From a virus, in the IMG/VR virus record IMGVR_UViG_3300037042_001463, positions 1-23,244 of that record: a stretch of 23,244 bases of DNA, one strand, 5' to 3'. Position numbers and translations under genes: made by a program. Positions 103 to 18,223 of this stretch are shown here, piece after piece. Numbering within the stretch: position 1 is the first letter of the stretch; every line of letters begins with the position of its first letter. The notes below the pieces were generated by a model, which worked only from the letters and a program-made list of their open reading frames with translations, was not told the DNA's origin and made no database searches.

Positions 103-137
103 TTATATTAAAACCAAAAAAGAAAGTTTTAATATAA
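103..137. promoter_or_regulatory. Divergent spacer with a perfect 12-bp inverted repeat
   Basis: TTATATTAAAAC (103-114) and GTTTTAATATAA (126-137) are perfect reverse complements separated by 11 bases (CAAAAAAGAAA). A further outer match, TACTTTT (90-96) against AAAAGTA (136-142), overlaps the right arm. Each arm therefore places the same GTTTTAATATAA word upstream of a start: 4 bases before the ATG at 142 (plus) and 17 bases before the ATG at 85 (minus). This can be read as two outward-facing copies of one promoter or leader element, or as an operator for a dimeric regulator. The sequence symmetry is certain; the function is inferred. Confidence 0.45.
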
Positions 138-141
138 AAGT

Positions 142-786
142 ATGGGTTATTATCAAGAGTCAAGAAAGTTTGAATGTGTTACCTGTTCAAAGATAGCAAT
201 AACTAAGTTCGATGATGTTTTAGAATGTTCTAAGTGTAGAACAATGGACACAAAGTGTGCAAATTGTGGAACAAAGTTTACATCAACAACTGGTAAAAAA
301 CATTGTAGAGTTTGTAGAAGACTACTTGGCCTTATTTCACCAGTAGCTATGAAGAGAAGTATCAGTCTAACAACAAAGTTGAATTGTAGTGATGTTAGAG
401 AACACGAGAAAGAGATAAAGATACTTGCTACTAAACTAAAATGGAACTTACTAACACCTTTAGACTATTATAGAGTTGCTAATGTTTGGATGACTGTTAC
501 TTGTGATGAGATAAAGTGGTCTTCAAAAGAAATTCACACACAAATTGAACTGATGCTTGACCTACTTATTAGAATGTTAAGTGAACCAGTAAGTCATTAC
601 GCTAAAAAACCTGGTGCTGGATTTAGAAAGTCAGTTAAACAAGTAGATAGTAGTGGTAGAACTTTAAAGAAATGGTCTACTGTAAAAGAAGTTTGTGAAG
701 AGTTTGACCTTAATAGAACGTTCGTAACAGCGGTTCTTAATGGTAAGAAAAAGATTTCTAACTTAGATTTGAGGTGGGTAAAGTAG
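142..786 (+). CDS. Zinc-ribbon protein with C-terminal NUMOD1-like DNA-binding motif
   Basis: The protein has 214 residues. The N-terminus carries four CxxC pairs (C12/C15, C29/C32, C39/C42, C55/C58), enough for two zinc ribbons. The middle (about 65-165) is helical without a motif I recognise. The last 47 residues (168-214) follow the NUMOD1 / intron-encoded-nuclease repeat pattern: a DSSGR turn, LKKWSTVKEVCEEFDLN as the helix-turn-helix entry, then VLNGKKKISN and a closing LRWVK. In the known family, NUMOD1 modules are small helix-turn-helix DNA-binding units, usually attached to GIY-YIG or HNH homing nucleases. No nuclease motif is visible here, so a sequence-specific DNA-binding or regulatory role is inferred. 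It is first in the plus-strand operon, just after the divergent spacer, and ends with TAG 17 bases before the next start. The start has an A-rich leader and no Shine-Dalgarno. Confidence 0.72.
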   Translation: MGYYQESRKFECVTCSKIAITKFDDVLECSKCRTMDTKCANCGTKFTSTTGKKHCRVCRRLLGLISPVAMKRSISLTTKLNCSDVREHEKEIKILATKLKWNLLTPLDYYRVANVWMTVTCDEIKWSSKEIHTQIELMLDLLIRMLSEPVSHYAKKPGAGFRKSVKQVDSSGRTLKKWSTVKEVCEEFDLNRTFVTAVLNGKKKISNLDLRWVK

Positions 787-795
787 TTTAATATA
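786..795 (+). promoter_or_regulatory. GTTTAATATA element upstream of the 116-residue gene
   Basis: GTTTAATATA followed by TAGAAGAT leads into the ATG at 804. It nearly repeats GTTTTAATATAA at 126-137, which precedes the first operon gene, and fits the degenerate TAAYATAW word seen before other starts. It could be a promoter core or merely an A/T-rich translation leader; the sequence alone cannot separate these. Confidence 0.25.
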
Positions 796-803
796 TAGAA
801 GAT

Positions 804-1154
804 ATGGACGGCTTAAAAGAAGGCATTGCAAGAACTATTTTAGTTCCAGATTTCTTACACGAATGGGTTGATGAGTATAAAGATGAAGTTGTTAGTTTAA
901 CATTTCAAATACTTGACCTTTACTACAGAGGTGTAAACAAAGAACTCCTAACAAACAATCAGGTGAAAAGACTTTGTAAAAAGATTGATGGTGTATCAGC
1001 AGACTTGTTAGGCATTACACCTCCTTATTTACATCTACAAGGTTGGATATGGATAGGTGAGATGATTGAAGAGTGGATACAATTGGCAATCTTTGAAGAA
1101 GAGTTTGAATCGGCTGCTAACCTAAGAAAACTACTTAATTCTGAATATGTCTAA
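804..1154 (+). CDS. Small protein with UVR-like C-terminal motif
   Basis: This is a 116-residue acidic, mostly helical protein with a hydrophobic, Trp-rich stretch (LQGWIWIGEMIEEWIQLA, about residues 78-95). The C-terminus, AIFEEEFESAANLRKLLNSE, resembles the UVR (UvrB/UvrC) motif, whose usual form is A-x-E-E-E-[DEF]-[FY]-E-x-A-A-x-L-R. In UvrB, UvrC and some bacterial regulators this motif is a helical hairpin used for protein-protein contact, so a partner-binding role is plausible. No catalytic residues are evident. Its end overlaps the start of the sigma-like gene by 8 bases (1147-1154), which suggests translational coupling. The function is otherwise unknown and the UVR resemblance is by eye only. 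Confidence 0.68.
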   Translation: MDGLKEGIARTILVPDFLHEWVDEYKDEVVSLTFQILDLYYRGVNKELLTNNQVKRLCKKIDGVSADLLGITPPYLHLQGWIWIGEMIEEWIQLAIFEEEFESAANLRKLLNSEYV

Positions 1155-1701
1155 TTGGCAATTATGGCTAAACAAAAACTATAAAACAATTTCATTCTGG
1201 GCCAAACACTGGCATCGTGAAGAATGGCGTGAACTCTTAGCTTTTCTCACGCTTTATCTACAAAAGAACTGGTATAAATTCAGTAAAATACCTGATGGTG
1301 ATGAACGAATTAAGTTCTTACAAACGTGGATGAAAAACAATGTTCGTTGGAAAAACTCTGACTTTAACAAATCTATAGGTGTAAACAAGTTTGATGATGA
1401 ATGGGAAATACAATCAGAAACATTCGAAGAACCTTATGAGATTTTAGCCGAAGACTTACCAGATGATGTAAAAGAGTTTATAGTTGATTTAGACCGTAGG
1501 TTCACAGAAATTGAGGTTAGACAGATTATTGTGATACGAAGAATATATCTTACCTTACCATCACACGAACGTGTCTTATATGACCTTTACTTTACACAGA
1601 TGTTAAGTTTAAGACAAGTAGCTAAGAAACTTCAATTACCCTTATCAGCAGTTCACAATATGGTAACTGACCTGAAAAAAAAGATAAAAGAAAGATGTTA
1701 G
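1147..1701 (+). CDS. Sigma-70-like factor, candidate late transcription regulator
   Basis: The protein has 184 residues with the two-part layout of a small sigma factor. Residues about 14-75 resemble sigma region 2: HREEWRELLAFLTLYLQKNW, then FLQTWMKNNVRW, the 'W-x-x-N' end found in ECF-type factors. An acidic linker (about 82-112) follows. Residues 134-182 look like region 4: a 'LP-x-x-E-R-x-L-x-x-L-Y' helix, then the helix-turn-helix LSLRQVAKKLQLPLSAVHNM and a basic tail. In the ECF family, region 2 binds the -10 and core polymerase and region 4 binds the -35. It overlaps its neighbours on both sides (8 and 7 bases), so it is part of a tightly coupled operon. Given the adjacent structural genes, directing late gene transcription is a reasonable inference. 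A purely DNA-binding role, or a terminase-small-subunit-like role, is the main alternative. Confidence 0.7.
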   Translation: MSNWQLWLNKNYKTISFWAKHWHREEWRELLAFLTLYLQKNWYKFSKIPDGDERIKFLQTWMKNNVRWKNSDFNKSIGVNKFDDEWEIQSETFEEPYEILAEDLPDDVKEFIVDLDRRFTEIEVRQIIVIRRIYLTLPSHERVLYDLYFTQMLSLRQVAKKLQLPLSAVHNMVTDLKKKIKERC

Positions 1702-1949
1702 AAATTATAGGACTGGCTTGTATTGGTGCACTTTGGATTAATGCAGAGCCTACAATTAGACTAAGAAGTCTATACAAAAAAGAAGACTGGTTTTTCAGAT
1801 TGATTAACTGTTGCCTTTGCTCAACATTTTGGATTGCACTACTATATAAGTTAATATGGTTTCAACAATTCGACTTATTTGTGGCAGCATCAGCAAGCGT
1901 ATTAGGAGAACTTATTTGCAAAAAATTAACAGAAGGAAAATTATGGTAG
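1695..1949 (+). CDS. Small membrane protein (DUF1360-like)
   Basis: The protein has 84 residues and about three hydrophobic segments: 1-16 (IIGLACIGALWI), about 35-55 (LINCCLCSTFWIALLYKLIW) and about 59-73 (LFVAASASVLGEL). The cysteine cluster C39, C40, C42 next to STFWIALL recalls the 'C-P-x-C-x-x-x-W' core of small phage and sporulation membrane proteins of the DUF1360 type. That resemblance is from memory and moderate. The ATG overlaps the end of the sigma-like gene by 7 bases, and its stop overlaps the next start, so the three genes are translated as a unit. The role is unknown; it is a possible inner-membrane phage protein. Confidence 0.68.
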   Translation: MLEIIGLACIGALWINAEPTIRLRSLYKKEDWFFRLINCCLCSTFWIALLYKLIWFQQFDLFVAASASVLGELICKKLTEGKLW

Positions 1950-2170
1950 AAGAAGCAACATTTTTAAGAGCACATAACTTAGTGCAAGAATGGGAAGGTA
2001 AAGAAAACTACAACGTGCCTGCTCACGTTATTACAGAAATCTTTAACACACACAACGAAATCTTTTGGGAAAAGAAAGAACATTCAAAAGGTTGTGGTGG
2101 TTGTAGAGAACGTGTTTGGAATAGATTAAAGTCTTGGTATCACGAGAATAAACATCTTTACGGATATTAA
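1943..2170 (+). CDS. 75-residue CxxC protein, unknown function
   Basis: I start this gene at the ATG at 1943. An ATG at 1856 in the same frame lies deep inside the preceding membrane-protein gene. The 1943 start is preceded by AGAAGGAAAATT, one of the few purine-rich Shine-Dalgarno-like leaders in the window. The product (MVEEATFLRAHNLVQEW...) is charged and soluble, with a single CGGC motif (C51, C54) followed by a basic-aromatic helix (RERVWNRLKSWY). Lone CGGC-RxRVxNRL tails occur in small proteins of Bacteroidota phages, always unassigned as far as I know. It overlaps the membrane-protein gene by 7 bases. A metal-binding or redox role for the CxxC pair is possible but unproven. Confidence 0.65.
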   Translation: MVEEATFLRAHNLVQEWEGKENYNVPAHVITEIFNTHNEIFWEKKEHSKGCGGCRERVWNRLKSWYHENKHLYGY

Positions 2171-2175
2171 CATAT
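2167..2175 (+). promoter_or_regulatory. TTAACATAT element upstream of the 282-residue gene
   Basis: TTAACATAT, followed by TTAGAAAC, lies in the only real gap of the plus-strand operon, 20 bases before the ATG at 2196. The same nine bases, followed a little later by TAGAAAC, precede the major capsid gene on the other strand. This supports a shared regulatory element, perhaps a late promoter core. The inference rests on a few copies. Confidence 0.35.
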
Positions 2176-2195
2176 TTAGAAACTAAATCTAACCT

Positions 2196-3044
2196 ATGCC
2201 AATAGAAAGAAGAGAAGATGAAACTCGTGATGAGTTTGTATCAAGATGTGTCAGTAAAGAAATGAATGGTGGTATGCCACAAGACCAAGCTTTAGCGGTT
2301 TGTTTAACATACGCAGATGAATACTTTAAAGGTGCAACTAAATCAGTTACAGATAATACTTGGTCAACTGAGGCACCTATCAATACAAACCTATCAAAAG
2401 TTAAAAAGGTAATCTTTGATGAAGAGTTCAATGAAGATGATGTTAAAAAATACAAAGACTTAGGTTTTAAAGTTTACATTAGAAGTTCTCGTAAGATAAA
2501 GAAGAAAGATAAAAAGGTTTGGAACAAATTAAAAGTTGCTGGTCTTTCAGAAGATAACTTAGTCTTTGGTGAGTTAAAAGAGTTAAACAAAAAGTATGAG
2601 TTTGACTTACTTCTTACAGGACAAGATCCTATTTTAGAAGCACTTCTTTTAAAAGGTCAGGAGTTAAACCTTAAAAACGTAATCAGTTCTTATGAAGTAG
2701 ATTCAATTGAAGATGCTAAGTTAAAAGAAGAGATAATGTTAAAGTCTGTTGACTTAAAGTTTGTTACAGTAAAAGTTCTTTATACTTATGAAGAGATACC
2801 TGGTATACCACCAGCGGCTTCTGGTTCTCGAAACTTCTGTAAAAGAATGTTGTCAAATAATAGAGCTTACTCACTTGATGAGATTAGCAATCTACCTAAC
2901 GAACACTTAAAAGAGATGTTTAAAAAGTATGACTTACAACCAGATGTGTTTCAATATAGAGGTGGTTTTTATAGACTACCAGGCACTTTAAACACCACAC
3001 CTTGGTGTAGACATTATTGGAAAGCAAACGTTGTTGTTAGTTAA
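2196..3044 (+). CDS. Probable phage head-associated protein with Cys-containing C-terminal domain
   Basis: The protein has 282 residues. The N-terminus (residues 8-36, DETRDEFVSRCVSKEMNGG then PQDQALAVC) matches a 'deF-x-x-R-C-x(n)-P-x-x-Q-A-x-A-x-C' motif, with cysteines C18 and C36, that recurs in Bacteroidota phage structural proteins. The middle (about 68-190) is Lys/Glu-rich and may form an alpha/beta domain. The C-terminus (about 190-282) reads VKVLYTYEEIPG, then SRNFCKRM (C215), an RGGFY turn (255-259) and WCRHYW (C271, H273). I associate this pattern with the C-terminal domain of phage head-morphogenesis/minor head proteins, where paired Cys/His may bind metal. It sits on the strand opposite the capsid and portal genes and is last in its operon. 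Its stop overlaps the stop of the convergent fibre gene. Presence in the virion is inferred. Confidence 0.62.
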   Translation: MPIERREDETRDEFVSRCVSKEMNGGMPQDQALAVCLTYADEYFKGATKSVTDNTWSTEAPINTNLSKVKKVIFDEEFNEDDVKKYKDLGFKVYIRSSRKIKKKDKKVWNKLKVAGLSEDNLVFGELKELNKKYEFDLLLTGQDPILEALLLKGQELNLKNVISSYEVDSIEDAKLKEEIMLKSVDLKFVTVKVLYTYEEIPGIPPAASGSRNFCKRMLSNNRAYSLDEISNLPNEHLKEMFKKYDLQPDVFQYRGGFYRLPGTLNTTPWCRHYWKANVVVS

Positions 3045-3047: not shown

Positions 3048-4320
3048 AGGTGAATGAACCACCGCCTCCACCACCACCACCAGTAGCCAAATCGTTATAG
3101 TTTGTTATATTTGTAGTATTACCTAAGTTAGTTCTAAAAACTTTAACAGGATTCCCTAAAGAAGCATCGATGTCAGAGAAACTCGCAGATACAATACTGT
3201 GTGTTCCTGTGATTGCTAAGTATGAAATCGTCGAAGCAGTAAAAGAAGTAACTTCGAATAACCTTCTGGCACCAGATAAATTAGTAAGAGGATTACCAAA
3301 GATATACATTTCTTCAACTGAATGTGTTGGTCCAGAAGACAACTCAATCTTTGGAGTTACTGAGTAAATTAAATTATCAGATGGTATTGTGGTATTTAAA
3401 GAAGATATGATAGCACCACCTATAAGCCTACCAGTTGAAGCAAATCTAAATACACCCTGATTTTGTTGGCCAATAGTTCCTCTTATTTGATTTAGTGATA
3501 AAGTTCTAAACCTAACATCAGTGTCTAAGTTGAATATACATCTTGCTCCTGTGTGTAAGTTACTTTCAGCATATATGTAATTTAGTTGTAAGTTGCCAGA
3601 AGATATACTAAAAGTAGCATTTACCGTAGAACCTGATAATACATAATACAACGAAGGTGGTGATGAAAAAGTTCCTTTTATGTATCTAAACTGTGGTATT
3701 CTGACAGTTGTTGATGCAAATCCAAAGCTACCATTCGTAACAGTTATTGTAGCATCAGCATCAATAACAATTGGAACAGTGTGATTGGCAGTTGTCTGTA
3801 AGGCCAAAGTCTGTGACTGTGTTGGATTAAAAACAACTGTTGTTGTAGACCCTGATAATAGGTTACCTTGAAATGTTGTTGTCGGTGCTGAAATAGATAA
3901 AGTTGCTCCATTTACAATAGCATTCGTAGTGTTTGAGAAAACATCTGTGACCTTTAACTCATCAAGTAATGTTTTTGTTCCAGCGCCAATACCAAAGGCA
4001 ACTCTTGGTATAGATTTACCATTTGTTTGTATAGAATGTGCTGAGTTGAATGTTATATTTGCGGTTTGAACTATATTCATTGCAGTAACAAATGTCGATG
4101 TTAGTGAGGCACCACTTATAGTCCAAGATGCATTAACAGTTAAAGTATTTGTGTAATTAGTAAAGTTAAAGGTTCTTGCGGCCGATGAAACATTCACAGT
4201 CAATTGACCCGATGTTGCAGTTGCCACAACATCATCAGCAGATGTTGGCACAGCAGCTTCAACCCAAGTTCCTGTTGAATTATAATTTCCTCCTGCGTTA
4301 CTGATTGTTCGTGTTGCCAT
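3037..4320 (-). CDS. Beta-rich tail fibre / adhesin-like protein ending in a poly-glycine motif
   Basis: The protein has 427 residues dominated by Thr, Ser, Asn and Val. It has no cytoplasmic enzyme motif and shows the short alternating strands expected of a beta-helix or beta-sandwich virion protein. The N-terminus (TRTISNAGGNYNSTGTWVEA, then PTSADDVVATATSGQLTVN) is a pattern seen at the start of fibre-like proteins of Bacteroidota phages. The C-terminus is eight consecutive glycines (3058-3081) followed by SFTFVN. Glycine-rich motifs form the receptor-contacting surface in T-even gp38 adhesins. A similar tip role is only an analogy here. Its start lies 23 bases inside the preceding small gene, so the two are co-translated. 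It is the last gene of the minus-strand cluster, a usual place for host-range genes. Confidence 0.66.
   Translation of the reverse strand: MATRTISNAGGNYNSTGTWVEAAVPTSADDVVATATSGQLTVNVSSAARTFNFTNYTNTLTVNASWTISGASLTSTFVTAMNIVQTANITFNSAHSIQTNGKSIPRVAFGIGAGTKTLLDELKVTDVFSNTTNAIVNGATLSISAPTTTFQGNLLSGSTTTVVFNPTQSQTLALQTTANHTVPIVIDADATITVTNGSFGFASTTVRIPQFRYIKGTFSSPPSLYYVLSGSTVNATFSISSGNLQLNYIYAESNLHTGARCIFNLDTDVRFRTLSLNQIRGTIGQQNQGVFRFASTGRLIGGAIISSLNTTIPSDNLIYSVTPKIELSSGPTHSVEEMYIFGNPLTNLSGARRLFEVTSFTASTISYLAITGTHSIVSASFSDIDASLGNPVKVFRTNLGNTTNITNYNDLATGGGGGGGGSFTFVN
3058..3081 (-). repeat. Eight-codon glycine run (GGT-rich microsatellite)
   Basis: Eight glycine codons in a row, mostly GGT with one GGA and one GGC, encode the poly-Gly tract near the C-terminus of the fibre-like protein. 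Trinucleotide slippage here would change the glycine number without shifting the frame. Confidence 0.7.
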
Positions 4321-4540
4321 TGTTTAATGTTATTTTTGTATAATCAACTATGAGATCCGAAAGGTCATAGTTACCATATTGTAAAAAATCATCGGTTAGA
4401 ACATCAATCCTTTTCATAATAAGTAGCTTTATCTCTCTATCACTTAGACCTTTGTCTATGGTAATTTCCCAATTGTGACCATCATATTCAAATAAGATAG
4501 TCTGGTATTCTTCTACTTCACTATTTACAATCCACTCCAT
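4298..4540 (-). CDS. Small acidic protein between two fibre genes
   Basis: The protein has 80 residues: MEWIVNSEVEEYQTILFEYD, then a helical middle (SDREIKLLIMKRIDVLTDDF) and a polar tail. It is acidic and soluble, with no signal peptide or membrane segment and no motif I recognise. The gene is locked to both neighbours: its ATG shares one base with the stop of the collagen-like fibre gene (TAATG at 4538-4542), and its end overlaps the next fibre start by 23 bases. Small genes between or after fibre genes sometimes encode fibre-assembly chaperones or fibre adaptors. That is the main hypothesis, from position alone. Confidence 0.6.
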   Translation of the reverse strand: MEWIVNSEVEEYQTILFEYDGHNWEITIDKGLSDREIKLLIMKRIDVLTDDFLQYGNYDLSDLIVDYTKITLNNGNTNNQ

Positions 4541-6867
4541 TAAGATTTAGTTATGTTTATCGACAAAGTTACCCTTGTTACTGTTGAAGCTGAATCAACG
4601 TTGAATGCTATTATATCACCAGCACTTACAGATGTTGTCCAAGTTGATAAAGACAAATCTTGATTTTTCTGAACCGATGATAAAGTTGGCTTCTCTGAGC
4701 CAGCAATCGTATCAGCAACAGATGGTGGGAAAGTAGCGTAGTTATCTTTCCAAACATCTATTACGATAGAACCTGTTTGGTCAGCAAATAAGTTCCATCC
4801 AGTAATAGTTCCTGAGTATGGTATTTGAACATATCCTTTAACACCAGTTGTGATTGCAGAACCACCACCATCAATTGTAACACCAAATGAACCAGAAGCA
4901 TTAGAGCTGGCAGGTCCAGTAGGTCCAGTAGGACCCATCGCTCCGGATAACTCAATAACACTTATATCTAAGTTATTAATGTTTATATCATCATCATCAA
5001 TACCACATATATCTATCCAATATGTTGTGCCAACTGATAATCCACTTACTATACCTTGTAGTGCGAATGGAAATAAAACTGTTGTAGATGCAAAATTTGG
5101 ACTAACTTTACTTATTTCTGTTCCAGCTGCAGCGGAGCCATTAGTAGGAGCAGTTCCTGTTCCATATCTCAAAGATAAAGTCATTAATCCGGTATTACCA
5201 ACACCTAAATCACCAGTAATCATAACCATCATTTCAGGTCTTGAAACCATAGAAAATGTAAATCCAATACCAGCCATTTCATTAGGTCCAAAATTGGTTG
5301 GATTTGCTGGATTTGCTGTCTTAAAGTTCATTTGTGATGTAGCCAATGTAGGTGAAACACCTGAAGTTCCTGATGAGCCATTAGCACCAGCCGCTCCTGA
5401 AGTTCCTGATGAACCATTCACACCAGCTGCTCCTGAAGTTCCTGATGAACCACTTACACCAGCTGCTCCTGAAGTTCCTGAAGAACCATTAGCACCATCA
5501 GCTCCATTGTTACCTGATGTGCCACTTGTTCCTGATGTTCCACTTGAACCTGATGTTCCTGAGGTTCCTGAACTTCCTGATGTGCCTGATGCTGAAACAA
5601 TTGATAAGAATAAATTGTGTCCGTTTGAAAAGTCAGTTGCTCCTATTCCACCTGAGCCTGATAATGAAACTGGCACTTCCCAATAATTGCTTGCTCCTGT
5701 TATTAAAGTTGGTGTGCCTGTTATTAGCCATATTTGATAATTTGCGCTGTTGTTTCTGTCTTGTATAGTTATAGTTTGCCCTGTTTCTAAAAGAGCAAGG
5801 AATATATCAATATCTATAACAGGATTTTCTGTAAGATGATTTATATTTATCTGTGTTGCTAAACTTTGAGTGGCATTATTCCAAAGGATTTGTCCTGAAC
5901 CTGGATTACCAGAAGTATTATTGGCATCGGCTGAATATAAAAATAAACTACTACTATAACCATTTACACCTGATGAGCCAGAAGTTCCACTTGAGCCAGA
6001 TGAACCATTAGCACCTGACGTTCCAGCAGAACCACTACTTCCTGATGTTCCAGATGAGCCATTAGCACCGGAAGTTCCAGAAGAACCATCAGCTCCGTTA
6101 TTACCGGAAGTTCCTGATGAGCCATTTGCACCTGATGTTCCAGAAGAACCATCAGCTCCGTTATTACCAGATGTTCCTGATGAACCATTTGCACCGGAAG
6201 TTCCAGAAGAGCCATTTGCACCAGAGGTTCCTGATGAACCATTTGCACCGGAAGTTCCAGAAGAGCCATTTGCACCAGAGGTTCCTGATGAACCATTTTC
6301 ACCTGATGTTCCTGATGAACCACTTGAGCCAGAAGTTCCAGAAGAACCATCAGCGCCGTTATTACCGGAAGTTCCTGATGAGCCATTTGCACCGGAAGTT
6401 CCTGATGAGCCATTTGCACCTGAAGTTCCAGAAGAACCATTTGCACCAGAAGTTCCAGAAGAACCATCAGCGCCGTTATTACCGGAAGTTCCTGATGAGC
6501 CATTTGCACCTGAAGTGCCAGAAGAACCATTTGCACCAGAGGTTCCTGATGAACCATCAGCTCCGTTATTACCAGATGTTCCAGAAGAACCATTTGCACC
6601 AGAGGTTCCTGATGAGCCATTTACACCAGAGGTTCCTGATGAGCCATTTACACCAGAGGTTCCTGATGAGCCATTTGCACCTGAAGTGCCAGAAGAACCA
6701 CTTGTTCCTGAAAGACCAGATGTTCCGTTCATTGGTGTTATGTTACCAAATGAATCTTTAAAATACCAGATTCCACCTTCGTTAAATAGAGAATCAACGC
6801 CAGTCTGAGGTGTTGGCACAGATGATGAACCACCTGTAATTCTGCTAATGTTTATTATTCCACCCAT
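4540..6867 (-). CDS. Collagen-like tail fibre with Ser/Thr/Asn-rich Gly-X-Y repeats
   Basis: The protein has 775 residues in a clear modular order. Residues 1-47 form a short head domain that probably attaches to the virion. Residues 48-303 are about 85 Gly-X-Y triplets built from GTS, GSS, GAN, GVN, GNN and GAD, with almost no proline. Residues 304-427 are a globular insert, 428-504 a second Gly-X-Y block, and 505-640 a second globular domain. A short GAMGPTGPTGP stalk sits at 641-653. The C-terminal domain (654-775) contains TIDGGGSAITTGVKGY and IVIDVWKDNY, a module I recognise from many phage tail fibre or appendage proteins. The layout suggests a long trimeric fibre with knobs. The gene follows the other collagen-like gene after a 32-base gap and is coupled by TAATG to the next gene. 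Confidence 0.82.
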   Translation of the reverse strand: MGGIINISRITGGSSSVPTPQTGVDSLFNEGGIWYFKDSFGNITPMNGTSGLSGTSGSSGTSGANGSSGTSGVNGSSGTSGVNGSSGTSGANGSSGTSGNNGADGSSGTSGANGSSGTSGANGSSGTSGNNGADGSSGTSGANGSSGTSGANGSSGTSGANGSSGTSGNNGADGSSGTSGSSGSSGTSGENGSSGTSGANGSSGTSGANGSSGTSGANGSSGTSGANGSSGTSGNNGADGSSGTSGANGSSGTSGNNGADGSSGTSGANGSSGTSGSSGSAGTSGANGSSGSSGTSGSSGVNGYSSSLFLYSADANNTSGNPGSGQILWNNATQSLATQININHLTENPVIDIDIFLALLETGQTITIQDRNNSANYQIWLITGTPTLITGASNYWEVPVSLSGSGGIGATDFSNGHNLFLSIVSASGTSGSSGTSGTSGSSGTSGTSGTSGNNGADGANGSSGTSGAAGVSGSSGTSGAAGVNGSSGTSGAAGANGSSGTSGVSPTLATSQMNFKTANPANPTNFGPNEMAGIGFTFSMVSRPEMMVMITGDLGVGNTGLMTLSLRYGTGTAPTNGSAAAGTEISKVSPNFASTTVLFPFALQGIVSGLSVGTTYWIDICGIDDDDININNLDISVIELSGAMGPTGPTGPASSNASGSFGVTIDGGGSAITTGVKGYVQIPYSGTITGWNLFADQTGSIVIDVWKDNYATFPPSVADTIAGSEKPTLSSVQKNQDLSLSTWTTSVSAGDIIAFNVDSASTVTRVTLSINITKS
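5358..5586 (-). repeat. Second Gly-X-Y coding repeat block of the long fibre gene
   Basis: About 76 codons of GTS/GSS/GNN/GAD/GAA/GVS-type triplets (residues about 428-503) with near-repeats of about 27 bases. On the plus strand they read as cctgaagttcctgatgaacc variants. It is separated from the first block by a non-repetitive domain of about 124 residues. Confidence 0.8.
6173..6298 (-). repeat. Perfect 54-bp tandem duplication
   Basis: A 54-base unit (6173-6226) is repeated without change at 6227-6280 and continues for 18 further matching bases. It encodes two 9-residue Gly-X-Y units per copy. Identity at synonymous positions, where most units in this gene differ, points to recent duplication. 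Confidence 0.8.
6601..6676 (-). repeat. Perfect 27-bp tandem repeat, about 2.8 copies
   Basis: The 27-base unit at 6601-6627 recurs exactly at 6628-6654, and 22 bases of a third copy follow (6655-6676). It lies near the start of the first Gly-X-Y block and encodes GVN-GSS-GTS-type triplets. Confidence 0.8.
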
Positions 6868-6899
6868 ACTTATTATATCTTTTTATCTTCTTATTGTTT

Positions 6900-7772
6900 T
6901 TAGTCAAACACGACTATACCACTAACCTCAAAGATACCATCAATAAAAAGATTATCTTTTATGTTGAGTAGTGCATTATTGTAAACCGTAGATGAGCCGA
7001 ATGAAAACGATTGGTCATATCCATCAACAACTAACTTACTAAAAACATACAAATCATATGCTACTTGTTGATATCCTGCTTGTATATGTGTTTCTGAAGT
7101 GACGAATCTAAATTGAGAAGCACCTCCACCAGCAGGACCAGCGGGACCAATAGGACCTTGTGCACCGGCAGGTCCAGGAGCTCCTGGCATACCAGGAAAA
7201 CCTCTATCACCTTTTTCACCATCGCGACCACGAGGACCAGTTGCACCGGTTGGTCCGATTAAACCATCTTGTCCTTTAGGTCCAATAGGTCCAGGTAATC
7301 CCTGTAAACCTTGTAGTCCTCTATCACCTTTATCACCCCTATCGCCCTTATCACCTTTAGGCCCAGCAGGTCCTTGTGGTCCAACAGAACCAGTGACACC
7401 TTGAAACCCATCAAAATAATCTATACCTTTTATAGGTGTGTAGCCATCAAGTCCGTTAATTCCATCTTTACCTTTTTGACCATCAACACCGTTAAAACCA
7501 TCAAAGTAGTCAACACCTTTAATTGGTGTGTAACCATCAAGTCCGTGAATACCTGATTTACCATCAATACCATCACGGCCGTTTTGACCATCTTTACCAT
7601 CTCGTCCATTTTGACCATCTTTGCCTGATAAACCTTTCTCACCTTGTAATCCATCATCACCTTTAGGTAAGGCATCCATCATCAGTTGTAACTGACCTAA
7701 ACGTTCTTTCTCTACATAAGTTACCTTTTTGTAGACACCATCTTTTTGCTTTATGTAGTAAGTATTACTCAT
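6900..7772 (-). CDS. Collagen-like tail fibre with charged and proline-rich Gly-X-Y repeats
   Basis: The protein has 290 residues. Residues 1-37 are a head domain (YYIKQKDGVYKKVTYVEKER, likely virion attachment). Residues 38-217 are an almost uninterrupted Gly-X-Y stalk. Its first half is rich in GKD/GRD/GQN and holds two copies of a GLDGYTPIKG-[VI]-DYFDGF motif (78-93 and 108-123), which occurs in other phage fibres. Its second half is classical collagen-like: GPAGPKGDKGDRGDKGDRG, later GPTGATGPRGRDG and GAPGPAGAQGPIGPAG. Residues 218-290 form a small beta-rich tip. Charged Lys/Asp/Arg pairs and proline are typical of bacterial and phage collagens that form stable trimers. Its ATG overlaps the upstream gene's stop by 4 bases. 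The contrast with the next, proline-poor fibre is notable. Confidence 0.82.
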   Translation of the reverse strand: MSNTYYIKQKDGVYKKVTYVEKERLGQLQLMMDALPKGDDGLQGEKGLSGKDGQNGRDGKDGQNGRDGIDGKSGIHGLDGYTPIKGVDYFDGFNGVDGQKGKDGINGLDGYTPIKGIDYFDGFQGVTGSVGPQGPAGPKGDKGDRGDKGDRGLQGLQGLPGPIGPKGQDGLIGPTGATGPRGRDGEKGDRGFPGMPGAPGPAGAQGPIGPAGPAGGGASQFRFVTSETHIQAGYQQVAYDLYVFSKLVVDGYDQSFSFGSSTVYNNALLNIKDNLFIDGIFEVSGIVVFD

Positions 7773-8338
7773 TTTTCTTGTGGGTAAATTGGTTTTGATC
7801 CACCTGAACCAGGTGATGAAATTGAGTGAAAGCCTTTTGTATAGTTTATGTGTATATCCCAGTCTAAGGTTTCTCCTGCTTGACCAACCACATTGAATGA
7901 AATTGAACTTGTGCCCGTGGCAAAGAATTCAAAATCACAACCAGTAAAGTCTTTCTTAACAGTATATGACATAGAACCACCGATAGCAGTAAGAGCTGAA
8001 CCAGAATGTCTAAAACCACCAAATGTTGTTGAAAGAAAAGCTTTAGAACCAGTAGAGTTCATTGCCAAAGCAGTTGATTCAATAAAAACACTTTCACCAG
8101 GTAACATAGGTATTGCGTCAAATGTGTAAACTTTGTAGTTTGACATTGTAACTGAGATAAACGAATTAAAGGTGGCTGACTCCATATCCGAAGCCGTGCC
8201 ACCTAAAAGAGAATAATAGTATCTATTGCCATTCGCTTCCGCATAGTAGGTATTCTCAACACCACTAATAAAAGTAGTATAAGTCAACCTAACACCATCA
8301 TAAGGTTTGTATTTAAAAAGTGTGTTTTTTACAGCCAT
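7769..8338 (-). CDS. Unknown virion-like protein, beta-rich
   Basis: This 189-residue protein has no motif I can name. It begins MAVKNTLFKYKPYDGVRLTY and has many Thr/Ser/Tyr/Phe-rich alternating stretches (YYAEANGNRYYYSLLGG; SYTVKKDFTGCDFEFFATGT), which suggest a beta-sandwich such as an appendage or head-decoration domain. It ends with a flexible SSPGSGGSKPIYPQEK tail. Both borders are coupled: TAATG with the preceding membrane coiled-coil gene (8336-8340) and a 4-base overlap with the collagen-like gene. The position between connector and fibre genes makes a structural role likely, perhaps a fibre base or neck appendage. This is inferred from context only. Confidence 0.6.
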   Translation of the reverse strand: MAVKNTLFKYKPYDGVRLTYTTFISGVENTYYAEANGNRYYYSLLGGTASDMESATFNSFISVTMSNYKVYTFDAIPMLPGESVFIESTALAMNSTGSKAFLSTTFGGFRHSGSALTAIGGSMSYTVKKDFTGCDFEFFATGTSSISFNVVGQAGETLDWDIHINYTKGFHSISSPGSGGSKPIYPQEK

Positions 8339-10334: not shown

Positions 10335-10694
10335 TTATCTTCTTAGGGCTCCGTTGTTTTTAGCGGGTCTATCCAAAGTTGCCCAAGTCTTTGTTTCTTC
10401 AACTAATACTTTACCCGTTTCGAGTATAGTTGAACCTGCTTCTACTTGATAAGACCACATACCAGCAGACATATTCAATCTTGGTAAGCTGAGGTTTTCT
10501 GGTGTGCCAACAGCTATATCAAATTTCGACCACTTATTGTTAGGTTGCAAATCAGTAGGATAGAATACTTTTTGCAAACCAGTCACATCATTAGTGAAGG
10601 TAAATTTGAAACTCGCTGTGTTACCAACCGGAACATCTTCTCTTAAACTCATCCAAATTGAGCTTGTAACTCCTGGTGTAAGGTTTATCATCAT
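10335..10694 (-). CDS. Small structural protein upstream of the portal
   Basis: This 119-residue, predominantly beta protein begins MMINLTPGVTSSIWMSLRED. Its pattern of strands and turns (FKFTFTNDVTGL; WSYQVEAGSTILETGKVLVE) resembles Ig-like or beta-sandwich virion proteins. I recall similar proteins near portals in Bacteroidota phages, without an assigned function. It is the first gene after the terminator at 10776-10811 and the ATAACATAT element, so it probably opens the portal transcription unit. Two adjacent ATGs (10694 and 10691) could serve as start, and I keep the longer. Its stop lies one base before the portal ATG. A head completion or decoration role is the best guess. Confidence 0.63.
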   Translation of the reverse strand: MMINLTPGVTSSIWMSLREDVPVGNTASFKFTFTNDVTGLQKVFYPTDLQPNNKWSKFDIAVGTPENLSLPRLNMSAGMWSYQVEAGSTILETGKVLVEETKTWATLDRPAKNNGALRR

Positions 10695-10710: not shown

Positions 10711-10719
10711 ATATGTTAT
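10711..10719 (-). promoter_or_regulatory. ATAACATAT element upstream of the portal transcription unit
   Basis: On the minus strand GATAACATATAAATAAAACT ends 8 bases before the double start ATGATG of the 119-residue gene. It contains TATAAATA and follows directly after an intrinsic terminator, where a new promoter would be expected. The same ATAACATAT precedes the protease/scaffold gene. Position and recurrence support a promoter core; there is no experimental evidence. Confidence 0.4.
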
Positions 10720-10775
10720 CTAAACCTCACTCTGTTTTTAGCCTATAACTTCTGTTACTAAAATTTGCTTAAATA

Positions 10776-11380: not shown

Positions 11381-12286
11381 TTATGAGTATAACACGATTT
11401 CGTTACCGTATAGGTAATTAACACCAAACTTCAAAGAAGTTGCAAATCTCTCGGTTCTTGCACCAGAGATGTTTCTTTGTGGTATGATGATGATTTCGTC
11501 CCAATCAGAAACTAAGTCTGTTAAGAAGAATACTTTATCAGAGTTGAAAGCAATCATTTGTTTTGCTAACAAACCTGAAGTTGGGATAAGTCTGAATCCT
11601 AAGTAGTTCAACTCTTTGTCACCAACCATGAATAATCCACCTTGTGTAGATGCTTGTGCTTGTTTGTAAGCGAAAGCGATTTCTTGTGAAACAAAGATTT
11701 TGAAGTTAGCTTCTTGTCTAACTACTGCAGGAACTGCTTCAAGAATTCTGTTTAACTCACCGATAACGTTAGAAGCAACGATAGAAGATGCAGTAGCAGT
11801 TACATCGATAACTGAACCGTCAGCTAAAAGTTGTTTTACTAAACCATCACAAAGTGAGTAAGGGTAAGATGCAGTTGCAGTGTTACCTTGGAACATAGTT
11901 AATTCTAAGTCAGAAGCAACTTTCTCAGCAACGTAGTTAACTACGAAGTCAGCATATGATGTTGGCATCACTTCTTCGTTGTTAGAACCTGCTCTTAATT
12001 GTAGTGATAAGTAGTTAGCTTCGAATGTTGTTGCGCAATATTCTAAGTTAACTTTAAGGTCACAAACCTCCATAGTTTTTTGATTAAGTGTTCCTTCACC
12101 TGTTGCAGAGAATGAACAATCATCAGCTTGTAAGATGTTACCTAAATCCGAGTAAGCTAATTTGATTTTCGATTTAACATTCGGAATCAAAGATAACTCA
12201 TTTTTAGCAACACCAGTTGTAAGAACTTTTCTGAAGAAACCTTCAGCGTCCTTACCGTAAAATGTAGTATTGTCTGTTAAAGCCAT
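11381..12286 (-). CDS. Major capsid protein (HK97-fold candidate)
   Basis: The protein has 301 residues. The pattern fits major capsid proteins of Bacteroidota phages: a short N-arm (MALTDNTTFYGKDAEGFFRK), an early beta segment (SKIKLAYSDLGNILQADDCS), a long spine-like helix (SYADFVVNYVAEKVASDLEL), a central domain with FKIFVSQEIAFAYKQAQ, and a C-terminal strand ending GVNYLYGNEIVLYS. There is no N-terminal scaffold extension, which agrees with scaffolding being supplied by the upstream protease/scaffold gene. The leader ends in nine A bases directly before the ATG, as expected for very high translation in Bacteroidota. Intergenic spacing is 62 bases upstream and 32 downstream. The fold assignment is from pattern and context, not a search. 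Confidence 0.78.
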   Translation of the reverse strand: MALTDNTTFYGKDAEGFFRKVLTTGVAKNELSLIPNVKSKIKLAYSDLGNILQADDCSFSATGEGTLNQKTMEVCDLKVNLEYCATTFEANYLSLQLRAGSNNEEVMPTSYADFVVNYVAEKVASDLELTMFQGNTATASYPYSLCDGLVKQLLADGSVIDVTATASSIVASNVIGELNRILEAVPAVVRQEANFKIFVSQEIAFAYKQAQASTQGGLFMVGDKELNYLGFRLIPTSGLLAKQMIAFNSDKVFFLTDLVSDWDEIIIIPQRNISGARTERFATSLKFGVNYLYGNEIVLYS

Positions 12287-12321: not shown

Positions 12322-12330
12322 ATATGTTAA
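12322..12330 (-). promoter_or_regulatory. TTAACATAT element upstream of the capsid gene
   Basis: TTAACATAT followed by TGTATAGAAAC lies 35 bases before the capsid ATG. The same TTAACATAT, with TAGAAAC close behind, occurs upstream of the plus-strand head-associated gene at 2167. Directly before it, AAAAACCAGGTTTTT (12329-12343) could form a weak hairpin with a T-run that overlaps this element. Candidate capsid promoter. Confidence 0.4.
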
Positions 12331-12343
12331 AAACCTGGTTTTT
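12329..12343 (-). repeat. Short inverted repeat between protease/scaffold and capsid genes
   Basis: AAAAACC and GGTTTTT flank a single base. As RNA it would fold only as a 5-bp A-U stem with a 5-base loop, so it is at best a weak or partial terminator. It lies 5 bases beyond the stop of the protease/scaffold gene, just before the TTAACATAT element. Confidence 0.35.
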
Positions 12344-12348
12344 GTTTT

Positions 12349-13386
12349 TTACTTTGATTTAGCAAAAGCTTTGATACGAGCTTCAATAGATGCAAACTTA
12401 GAATCAATCTTCAAGTCTTCTTGTTTCTTGATACTTCCTGTTGCAGGTATTGAACTAAACTTCTCGTCAACTGATGCTCGAAAGGAGTTTAACTCTTCGT
12501 CTTTGTTTTCTAATGCTGATTTAAGTGCAGTGATTTCTTCCATCAATTCTGCAAATCTTGCGTCAATCATCATAGATACTTCTTCTGAAGTAAGTGCTTG
12601 AGGTGCACCTGGTTCAACTGCTAAGTCTTCCGCGTCTTCTTCAACTGAAGAAACTTGAATCTCAACAACTTCACCATTTCTTGTAGTCACAATAGTGCCA
12701 TCTTCTAAAACGTGGTCAGCATCAGGAGCCAACTCAGTAAGAGCTTCATCTATATAGATAATTGTGCCCATTCCGAATTCACCATCCCAATAAACAGTCA
12801 CACCATCTTTAAGAACGGCTGTTCCTAATTTGATTTGTTTTTCCATTACTTGTTCTTTATTTTTTAGTGATAATTCTAAATCAGCTAAGATTTCTACAGA
12901 GAAACCTTTCACTTCTTCATTCTTAACTTTGTCTTTCCAAAAGTCTGAGTCTTTAACCTTAACACCACCAAACCAAGTTCCTTCTGGTAAGTCAAAGCCT
13001 AAGCCTCTACTTTTGTCTTGCTCATTTTCAATAAGCCAATTCTGTGCTACAAATGCGTCAACCTTCTCATTAGTGTGCATAAAGTTTATGTTCTTATTAT
13101 TAAGGTCTTCGTTAAACTTTGTAGCTATTTTTTCAATTTCTTCTTTGCCGAATCTAACATAGTATTCACCGTTTTGCTCATCAAACCTATAGATAAGCAT
13201 GTTAGGTATTAAAAATGGTCCATAAAGCATTTGCTTGTCAGTATCCGATTTGAACAACATAGGATTTTGTTTAGCCAGTTTAATCCAGTTCACTTTTATT
13301 GCTGGGTCATCAACTAAACTTATCATTCCAACACCCTGACTTTCGTCTGTTAGAACTATATCGTAGATAGGTAAATCTTTGTTCAT
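12349..13386 (-). CDS. Prohead protease/scaffold fusion (XkdF-like)
   Basis: The protein has 345 residues. The N-terminus (PIYDIVLTDESQGVGMISLV, then DDPAIKVNWI) and the segment RLGF-type 'M-H-T' (H104) through KGFSVEIL (S163) match the XkdF-like serine protease pattern, in which a His and a Ser of a 'GFS-V-E' motif act in prohead maturation. Residues about 183-246 (IKLGTAVLKDGVTVYWDGEF, later DADHVLEDGTIVTTRNGEV) form a small beta domain common in such phage proteins. Residues about 265-345 are a charged coiled coil (SMMIDARFAELMEEITALKS), suited to scaffolding. A protease joined to a scaffold and placed before the capsid gene is a known arrangement. The likely third catalytic residue was not identified. 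A possible internal start lies at M181. Confidence 0.76.
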   Translation of the reverse strand: MNKDLPIYDIVLTDESQGVGMISLVDDPAIKVNWIKLAKQNPMLFKSDTDKQMLYGPFLIPNMLIYRFDEQNGEYYVRFGKEEIEKIATKFNEDLNNKNINFMHTNEKVDAFVAQNWLIENEQDKSRGLGFDLPEGTWFGGVKVKDSDFWKDKVKNEEVKGFSVEILADLELSLKNKEQVMEKQIKLGTAVLKDGVTVYWDGEFGMGTIIYIDEALTELAPDADHVLEDGTIVTTRNGEVVEIQVSSVEEDAEDLAVEPGAPQALTSEEVSMMIDARFAELMEEITALKSALENKDEELNSFRASVDEKFSSIPATGSIKKQEDLKIDSKFASIEARIKAFAKSK

Positions 13387-13391
13387 ACTCT

Positions 13392-13400
13392 ATATGTTAT
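13392..13400 (-). promoter_or_regulatory. ATAACATAT element just before the protease/scaffold start
   Basis: ATAACATATAGAGT precedes the ATG at 13386, leaving only 5 bases between the nine-base word and the start. The word is identical to the one before the portal unit. If it were a -10-like promoter core, the transcript would be almost leaderless. That is a reason for doubt, and a translation-leader role is an alternative. Confidence 0.3.
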
Positions 13401-13455
13401 TTTTTGTAAATGTGTTTTTTCTAAAACATGCAACATAATGATACTAACTACCCCC

Positions 13456-17029: not shown

Positions 17030-18190
17030 TTACACTATATTTATTAGTCTGTGGTATGAATAAGAACATAACCACTGTATTGTTGTTGTGCCAACACCTG
17101 TGACACTTACATAAACACCTGAAGCATCAGCAGACATTTCAACATCTGGAGAAGCACCTGGCCAGTTAGCACTTGAAGCATTCAATATAGGAACGCCAAC
17201 CTCTGTTATTGTTCCAGAATCATTTATTGTATAACATCCTATAATCTCTGCGTGATAAGCATAAACCGCTGCATCAATAACAGTTCCAACTAAATAAGCC
17301 TTCACCTGAACAATTTCACCTAATCCAACCCAAGGTATTGAAACGATGTCTGTAGTAAGTGCATCTGATGTTCTTAAAAGAGCTTGTGCTGTAATCCAGT
17401 CACTTCTATCATACTGATTTGAACCATCATCTGATACACCTCTGATTGCTAATTGTTTACCAGCATAAACCGTCTCAGTATCATAGTCAAACTTATTATA
17501 ACCTAAACCTAAGTGAACAACTGCGTTCAATGAGTCAGCTACTTTAACATTTTGACCACCAATAACAACTGTTGAAGAACAATTTGACATTGATGCTGAT
17601 ACAGAACCTATAAACACACTATCGATGTTTCCAACACCTACAAATGATGTGCTTCTTGAATTTAAGTGTAGGCCTCTATCTTTGGTAGTTATTGATGATG
17701 ATGAGTGTATTTGTAAAGGTGCATTGTTTGCCAATATACCATTAGTTGTAAGAATACCGTTTGTAGTTTCTCTTAACACAACACCACCATTAACGTTGAT
17801 TGTTGCATAATTGGTAGATGAACCACCTAAGTAAAGGTCTTTCCATCTAAGAGAAGTATTACCTAAATCTGTAAAGTAACCAGTTCTACGTGTAACAGCA
17901 TCTGCTGAATAAGTAGAACCGATTTGAATGTTTGGTGAATTGAAAACAAATACAGCCGCAGTTGATGCAGTTGAGCCAGAAGATGTTCCGGTTGCAATCT
18001 GTAACACACCGTTGTTTGTTCTAACATAAACTTTATCATCAGTAACATTTACGCCAAACTCACCTATGTAAAGGTCACTTGCAAGCCAAGTTTCGTCAGT
18101 GTGGTCATTTGAAACTGGCACTGTAAAAGTTTGACCAGCTGTTGAGAGTGCGTGATTTATAATCCTACTATATTGTTCTATTTTCGCCAT
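17030..18190 (-). CDS. Tail fibre-like protein between tail hub and tape measure
   Basis: The protein has 386 residues. Near the N-terminus, DLYIGEFGVNVTDDKVYVRT (39-58) is the 'G-E-x-G-V-N-x-x-D-x-x-x-Y' motif common at the head of phage tail fibre and baseplate proteins. LGNTSLRWKDLYLG (109-122) matches the 'R-W-K-D-L-Y-L' motif of fibre shafts. The centre is Ser/Thr/Asn-rich with beta-helix-like repeats. The C-terminal 100 residues form a beta domain ending TTIQWLCSYSYHRLINIV. No enzymatic motif is seen. It probably forms a short fibre or a side appendage of the distal tail. Its neighbours are the 1250-residue hub-like gene (33-base gap) and the tape measure (4-base gap), whereas the other fibres lie far downstream. 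Confidence 0.68.
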   Translation of the reverse strand: MAKIEQYSRIINHALSTAGQTFTVPVSNDHTDETWLASDLYIGEFGVNVTDDKVYVRTNNGVLQIATGTSSGSTASTAAVFVFNSPNIQIGSTYSADAVTRRTGYFTDLGNTSLRWKDLYLGGSSTNYATINVNGGVVLRETTNGILTTNGILANNAPLQIHSSSSITTKDRGLHLNSRSTSFVGVGNIDSVFIGSVSASMSNCSSTVVIGGQNVKVADSLNAVVHLGLGYNKFDYDTETVYAGKQLAIRGVSDDGSNQYDRSDWITAQALLRTSDALTTDIVSIPWVGLGEIVQVKAYLVGTVIDAAVYAYHAEIIGCYTINDSGTITEVGVPILNASSANWPGASPDVEMSADASGVYVSVTGVGTTTIQWLCSYSYHRLINIV

Positions 18191-18223
18191 ATCTAAATAT
18201 ATCTTTTTCTAAACTAAGTGTTT

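Follow-up and report, generated by a model that had tools for sequence, protein, structure and literature searches.

A probable phage-encoded, ECF-like sigma factor and its putative two-part late promoters in uncultivated phages of probable Bacteroidota hosts

Introduction

Late-gene control in Bacteroidota phages is little described, and a small open reading frame (ORF) beside the virion genes of an uncultivated virus raises the question whether such phages encode a sigma factor of their own and which promoters it might serve. The DNA analysed, in the following called the window, is the 23,244-base IMG/VR record IMGVR_UViG_3300037042_001463. The ORF at positions 1147-1701 on its plus strand starts with ATG and encodes a sigma-like factor of 184 amino acids, here called P0001. 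An earlier note on this DNA had proposed a phage sigma-like factor that serves late genes via a repeated leader motif, a central idea that fits the data and is supported by the present analysis. The ORF very probably encodes a phage sigma factor redirecting the host RNA polymerase to the late genes via AAAC/ACATAT promoters. The computed evidence comprises a gene that is conserved together with its neighbours, resemblance to sigma factors in profile and fold searches, a two-part motif, host-type promoters and a switch of the -35 word in one related genome (G019).

The sigma gene, its operon and its relatives

The sigma ORF is part of a row of plus-strand ORFs spanning 142-3044. It is a real ORF that overlaps both neighbours, as the earlier note had described, sharing 8 nt with the upstream ORF 804-1154 and 7 nt with the downstream ORF 1695-1949. 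The first ORF of the operon inside the window, g1 (142-786, plus strand; homologs found), has a zinc-ribbon-like N-terminus and a NUMOD-like C-terminal segment according to weak Pfam matches below the cut-off (5e-4 for the NUMOD-like segment), and its sequence suggests an endonuclease-related DNA-binding protein within the sigma operon. It is followed by g2 (804-1154, plus strand), which its homologs mark as a conserved partner upstream of the sigma gene. Downstream follow g4 (1695-1949, plus strand), a small protein conserved among the homologs and, judged from its sequence, likely a membrane protein, g5 (1943-2170, plus strand, the ATG at 1943 taken as start), a small conserved protein with a CGGC motif, and g6 (2196-3044, plus strand), the last ORF of the plus-strand unit with its own sigma-type promoter in front. 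The window truncates the upstream part of the sigma strand at base 1.

The minus strand of the window carries portal, major capsid protein (MCP)-like, protease-like and tape-measure ORFs, the MCP name being based on position and on a PHROG match to 'virion structural protein'. The sigma gene is therefore adjacent to the structural cluster, as had been stated, but because the structural genes are encoded by the minus strand and head in the direction of the sigma operon, they form a separate unit convergent with it. Two tail-fibre-like ORFs are present at 4540-6867 and 6900-7772; the DNA of the former contains many short repeats encoding Gly/Ser-rich stretches, and the latter gives a Pfam Collagen match of 5.5e-25.

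When P0001 itself was the query, IMG/VR, GTDB genomes and GenBank phages yielded no relative, and two distant sigma homologs used as queries gave no match in GenBank phages. Relatives were obtained via the portal and the MCP, which identified 32 and 56 loci in IMG/VR, respectively. From the records behind these loci 30 were chosen, mostly longer ones, and a sigma homolog is present in 18 of them, including all 10 records of at least 30 kb, while the 12 records without a homolog are pieces of 9 to 26 kb. The identity amounts to 36-65% in 15 records and to 28-31% in three. A profile search in 22 records, the Nonlabens phage P12024S and 8 loci likewise found the sigma homolog in 18 records, window included, and none in P12024S, in four other records or in the 8 loci. 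The gene order g2-sigma-g4-g5-g6 is conserved in several near-complete records. In G011 the sigma gene (29230-29841) is located on the late strand, unlike in the other near-complete records.

The closest isolated phage by portal is P12024S with 27.5% identity, and no portal relative above 28% identity was found among the 50,697 GenBank phage records searched. Genomes were also searched with the MCP in order to identify the host, which gave no match. The host is probably a member of the Bacteroidota because of the TAnnTTTG promoters described below and the distant Nonlabens phage relative. One relative, IMGVR_UViG_3300033996_000679 (G008), encodes the portal twice, about 33.7 kb apart, in a contig of 44,471 bases, suggesting a genome of about 33.7 kb and a terminally redundant contig that extends past one genome length.

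Profiles and predicted fold of P0001

The sigma alignment comprises 19 homologs. The NCBIfam profile sigma70-ECF matches 18 of them (best 5.3e-8), phrog_1190 'RNA polymerase sigma factor' 15 (best 5.4e-9), phrog_1740 14 (best 2e-6) and Pfam Sigma70_r4_2 11 at an E-value of 0.1 (best 1.1e-4). P0001 itself matches sigma70-ECF at 8.3e-8 over residues 67-183 with 32 bits (curated cut-off 42.9) and Sigma70_r4_2 with 18.0 bits (curated cut-off 25.7), so that all profile scores given for P0001 fall below the curated cut-offs. The Pfam region 2 profiles matched none of the 19 homologs at an E-value of 0.1. The check by sigma region profiles that the earlier note had recommended hence recovers region 4, below the cut-off for P0001, and does not recover region 2.

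The predicted structure of full-length P0001 (pLDDT 80, pTM 0.41) consists of two helical domains with a linker of low confidence between them, and the low pTM value means that the mutual placement of the two domains is undefined. The predicted N-terminal helical domain (residues 1-80; 1147-1386, plus strand) is sigma region 2-like, the linker (residues 82-103; 1390-1455) has a pLDDT below 50, and the C-terminal domain (residues 121-184; 1507-1698) is, by profiles and predicted fold, a sigma region 4-like helix-turn-helix with a recognition helix starting from about residue 166. Among the 50 matches listed by Foldseek in the PDB nearly all are sigma factors or sigma regions with ECF sigmas first, the top matches being sigmaE (E-value 5e-3, probability 0.99), AlgU, Mycobacterium tuberculosis (Mtb) SigL and SigW; the probabilities reach 1.00, with no match at an E-value of 1e-3 or below. 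The region 4 domain superimposes on sigma-28 with a VIA Z of 9.1 and an rmsd of 1.6 over 65 residues (120-184). The N-terminal domain folded alone has a pLDDT of 90.9 and reaches VIA Z values of 7.0 and 6.4. In Foldseek just two chains of transcription complexes, 9n9q_C and 9m9e_F, match it with a TMq of at least 0.6 (0.60-0.65), at weak E-values of 4.6 and 6.8 and probabilities of 0.35 and 0.28; we take 9n9q_C to be the sigma subunit of a dCas12f-sigmaE complex.

The presence of a region 4 in P0001 is thus well supported by sequence and predicted fold, and that of a region 2 is supported by predicted fold and position only, which supports both segments named in the earlier note, region 2 mainly by fold. 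With 184 amino acids and two helical domains P0001 fits the ECF build of about 180-200 amino acids without region 1.1 or region 3, and sequence and model together suggest an ECF-type sigma factor of two domains. The best PDB sequence match of the sigma profile was a cellulase (E-value 0.003). As this match runs across the linker and covers a portion of either domain, it is probably due to chance and was disregarded; one homolog searched against the PDB sequences gave nothing below 0.067.

Two other identities for the protein have to be considered. That P0001 is a small terminase subunit or a DNA-binding protein unrelated to sigma factors is extremely improbable. In the distant clade the gene comes immediately after the large terminase gene (TerL), as would suit a terminase protein; however, most relatives examined have a separate small ORF in the small terminase (TerS) position just before TerL, a label given from position and look, the one such ORF tested being without a PHROG match. 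Furthermore, every strong match by profile or fold is of the sigma type, both fold searches place sigma factors first, and no match to a small terminase, named in the earlier note as an outcome speaking against a sigma factor, was found. Alternatively, P0001 might be a late activator of the ArpU/RinA type, i.e., a region 4-like DNA-binding protein aiding an RNA polymerase that keeps the host sigma factor. It would agree with this possibility that region 2 has no Pfam match in the 19 homologs and that phrog_36 'transcriptional regulator', presumably the ArpU/RinA group, matches 5 of the 19 (best 1.3e-4), but the sigma profiles score better and in more homologs, and the N-terminal domain weakly resembles sigma domain 2. 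The promoters themselves, to which we return below, bear on this possibility as well.

A putative two-part promoter upstream of the late genes

Upstream of the virion genes, on the strand opposite to the sigma gene, a two-part element AAAC-N16/17-ACATAT (or GATATA) is found. Of the 138 late upstream regions of 15 records, 83 have the site with a spacer of 16 or 17 and 55 have no site, while the other spacing pairs between 10 and 23 occur in 17, 13, 11, 6, 2 and 6 of the 138 regions. This count covers 15 of 22 records; G013, G016, G017, G022, G023, G026 and G027 gave 0 by the ACATA rule. The hexamer ACATAT alone occurs in 42 of 125 late-strand upstream regions (6.8 expected) and the two-part pattern in 36 of 125 (2.8 expected), compared to 2 of 62 regions on the other strand (0.9 expected). 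The spacing is sharply defined: in 13 records (322 kb) AAAAC-Ng-ACATAT occurs on the late strand 11 times at g=16 and 28 times at g=17 but at most 4 times at any other g from 0 to 40, and the opposite strand has 2 occurrences at g=17. For G008, 36,000 bases were used in the upstream-word, gap-histogram and matrix counts, so that one promoter may have been counted twice, and 33,678 bases in the later counts, including that of 83 among 138. Since an unsupervised two-block EM converged on coding-sequence words, the motif was derived by anchoring the analysis on the -10 word and by plotting spacing histograms. No AAAC/ACATAT spacing peak was observed in P12024S, in which the sigma profile finds no homolog, or in 50 kb of phiEco32.

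Five of the six late upstream regions in the window have the site. On the minus strand AAAC-N16-ACATAT precedes the MCP-like ORF 11381-12286 (12322-12347) and the protease-like ORF 12349-13386 (13392-13417), AAAC-N17-ACATAT precedes ORF 10335-10694 of the portal operon (10711-10737), and AAAC-N16-GATATA precedes the tail-fibre-like ORF 4540-6867 (6874-6899) and ORF 17030-18190 (18198-18223). On the plus strand motif search and weight matrix place AAAC-N16-ACATAT before g6 (2150-2175). The matrix, trained without the window and then applied to it, recovers the sites of the MCP-like, protease-like, tail-fibre-like, 10335-10694 and 17030-18190 ORFs as well as that of g6, together with two lower-scoring matches inside genes. 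Over 13 records 63 of its 78 matches are on the late strand, intergenic and within 80 nt of a start, compared to 4, 6 and 6 matches of any kind in three Markov shuffles. Similarly, AAAC-N16/17-ACATA is observed five times in the window, one of these (7847-7872) falling inside ORF 7769-8338, whereas dinucleotide shuffles have a mean of 1.04 and none of 100 reaches five. The leader motif TAAYATAW of the earlier note captures the -10 half of this element, but the real unit has two parts; TAAYATAW occurs 14 times in the window (6.8 expected), and it was dropped as the repeated unit as just four matches (2168, 10711, 12322 and 13392) lie in promoters.

The end of the -10 hexamer is at most 8 nt from the start codon at 46 of the 83 promoters. 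In other sigma systems the -10 hexamer spans -12 to -7, and with the same placement transcripts would start at or next to the AUG, so that these 46 promoters would give rise to nearly leaderless late mRNAs. In Flavobacterium johnsoniae, by contrast, 87% of the transcripts have leaders of more than 10 nt (PMC6847099). A translation signal is unlikely to explain the motif, since its two words keep a fixed spacing but lie at variable distances from the ATG.

A further candidate promoter, AAAAC-N17-ATATAA, was read from the sequence before g1 (110-137, plus strand) and has its mirror image at 103-130 on the minus strand. The inverted repeat at 103-137, TTATATTAAAAC...GTTTTAATATAA, lies between g1 and a divergent ORF running off the window and corresponds to two overlapping candidate promoters facing apart. 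The plus-strand candidate would make self-activation of the sigma operon possible; a counterpart was not seen in G014 or G004.

Host-type promoters of the early strand

The sigma strand carries promoters of a different kind. The Bacteroidota promoter consensus TAnnTTTG (PMC6847099) served here as the host-type element. TTG-N17..23-TAnnTTTG is found in 12 of the 62 upstream regions on the other strand (0.21 expected) and in 3 of the 125 on the late strand. Among the intergenic matches of 11 records that have a gene start within 150 nt, the non-late strand carries 15 and the late strand 2. The sigma strand of G008, G004 and G014 has the early genes first and the sigma operon last.

This division argues against an activator of the ArpU/RinA type. 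Instead of the host-type TAnnTTTG, the late promoters carry a distinct -10 word, ACATAT or GATATA, at a fixed spacing from the -35 word, as expected if the sigma factor itself is replaced, and we regard such an activator as unlikely.

A switch of the -35 word in one lineage

Besides their co-occurrence, evidence that ties the sigma factor to the two-part promoter comes from G019. When AAC and AGC are the triplets accepted at -35, G019 has AGC at each of its 7 sites and AAC at none, whereas the other 14 records have AAC at all 76 sites; a looser count in the 13 main records gave 3 AGC among 83 NNC. The switch is seen at orthologous genes: MCP, protease, the ORF of 117-121 amino acids and the ORF of 383-389 amino acids are preceded by AAGC in G019 and by AAAC in the relatives that have the site. 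L023, a fragment with 82% MCP identity to G019, has AAAC. The recognition helix residues 166-172 read VMATYLM in G019 and LSAVHNM in the window, the changes including S167M, V169T and N171L. Residues S167 and V/I169, which do not vary among the other aligned homologs from promoter-bearing records, are M and T in G019, and N171 of P0001 would align with S172 of sigmaE, which we take to be a -35-contacting residue. From the compared sequences the switch links the sigma factor to the promoter, although it represents a single event in a single lineage.

It also bears on the possibility that P0001 is sigma-like while AAAC-N16/17-ACATAT is read by another phage protein or by a host alternative sigma factor, P0001 serving other genes. 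The link between protein and motif consists of co-occurrence and one correlated switch; moreover, four of 22 records encode a second, gp55-like protein (see below), and the distant clade G023, G026 and G027 has the protein but AAAC/AGC-N16/17-ACATA was found in 0 of 6, 0 of 12 and 0 of 13 regions. In G016, G013 and G017 the strict AAAC/AGC-N16/17-ACATA rule likewise gives 0 of 36 regions, and there is just a broad peak with a [GT]ATATA-like -10 word at N16-18. On the other hand, the gp55-like protein was not found in most promoter-bearing records, including the near-complete G014, G009 and G019, the unique recognition-helix changes occur in the very genome with the switched -35 word, and a host factor does not easily explain a phage-wide switch. 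A different reader of the motif is therefore considered very unlikely.

Proposed mechanism and implications

P0001 as the reader of the two-part promoters would act as follows. The host RNA polymerase with the host primary sigma factor would first transcribe the leftward early genes of the sigma strand from TTG...TAnnTTTG promoters, the sigma gene lying at the far end of the early strand. The phage sigma factor, made of sigma2, linker and sigma4, would then displace the host sigma factor on the core RNA polymerase. Its region 4 would read AAAC near -35 and its region 2 would read and open ACATAT (or GATATA) near -10, and transcription of the packaging, head and tail genes would begin, often at or next to the AUG. 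It is in this sense that we infer the binding of P0001 to RNA polymerase, its role as motif reader, the start sites, the timing and the Bacteroidota host.

As a wider proposition, these uncultivated phages, whose host is probably a member of the Bacteroidota, might possess a private code consisting of an ECF-like sigma factor and two-part promoters preceding most late transcription units, about half of them near enough to the start codon for the mRNAs to be leaderless, with a natural re-coding from AAC to AGC at every promoter found accompanied by S167M, V169T and N171L and with some phages adding a gp55-like sigma factor; we consider the arguments for and against this whole picture evenly balanced. 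Phage sigma factors themselves are known, and what would be new here is the ECF-like build, the two-part promoter, the nearly leaderless starts and the natural re-coding. In the open-access literature searched, no paper on a phage ECF-type sigma factor with its promoters in Bacteroidota phages was found; the papers on phage sigma factors that did come up concern other systems, including phage 7-11 and phiEco32. If true, the cognate promoters of one sigma factor could be read from many genomes, the joint change of a recognition helix and about seven promoters would provide a test case, and an orthogonal expression pair would become available for Bacteroidota, whose promoters differ from those of E. 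coli.

Comparison with known sigma systems

Bacterial ECF (group IV) sigma factors such as E. coli sigmaE, SigW and Mtb SigL/SigH consist, like P0001, of sigma2 and sigma4 without sigma3, and their promoters similarly have a -35 word with an AAC core and a spacer of 16-17 bp to the -10 word. In contrast to these, P0001 scores below the curated cut-offs, is phage-encoded and has no anti-sigma factor identified, and its promoters have the AT-rich -10 word ACATAT and serve virion genes.

Among phages, gp36 of phiEco32 and the sigma factor of phage 7-11 serve later genes after host-sigma-driven early genes (PMC4331800), and the present system resembles them in having a phage-encoded sigma factor for later genes. 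Phage phiEco32 gp36 matches phrog_1740 at 1.9e-45, the family that 14 of the 19 P0001 homologs match weakly; hhalign of the P0001 profile with gp36 alone gave 0.5%, which is not significant. The phage 7-11 motif is one core, TGATGT with flanks, and no -35 word accompanies it in the passages describing it (PMC4331800), whereas the P0001 motif has two parts. In Nonlabens phage P12024S gp33 is annotated as 'containing Sigma-70 region 2' and is encoded near TerL; P12024S lacks the two-part promoter peak, and gp33 is not matched by the P0001 profile.

The earlier note had named T4 gp55 as the model, a comparison that did not hold, the nearest kind being the two-domain ECF-type sigma factors. T4 gp55 (phrog_234) is, like P0001, a phage sigma factor for late genes with short AT-rich promoter words. 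It is region-2-like and, together with gp33 and the gp45 clamp, acts at a promoter consisting of a -10 word only. P0001, in contrast, contains a region 4, its putative promoters include a -35 word, and it shows no similarity to gp55: hhalign of the P0001 profile with T4 gp55 gave a probability of 0.2%, and phrog_234 was neither listed for P0001 nor found among 25 of the 33 families matched by the 19 homologs. The gp55-like ORF that G010 carries at the position of g2 raised the possibility that g2 itself derives from a gp55, an idea that was rejected as phmmer with g2 does not find that ORF.

The second, gp55-like protein is encoded in G008 (L096:19200-19571), G004 (L095:2359-2736), G007 (3396-3779) and G010 (4590-4985). 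These proteins have about 125-132 amino acids and no region 4; two were tested and match phrog_234 at 2.6e-6 and 7.4e-5, and that of G004 matches Pfam Sigma70_r2 at 6.6e-4, below the cut-off. Some small phages would thus encode two sigma-like proteins, the gp55-like one being accessory. In G004, G007 and G008 its gene is located between the ORF in the TerS position and TerL, and in G010 it immediately precedes the sigma gene.
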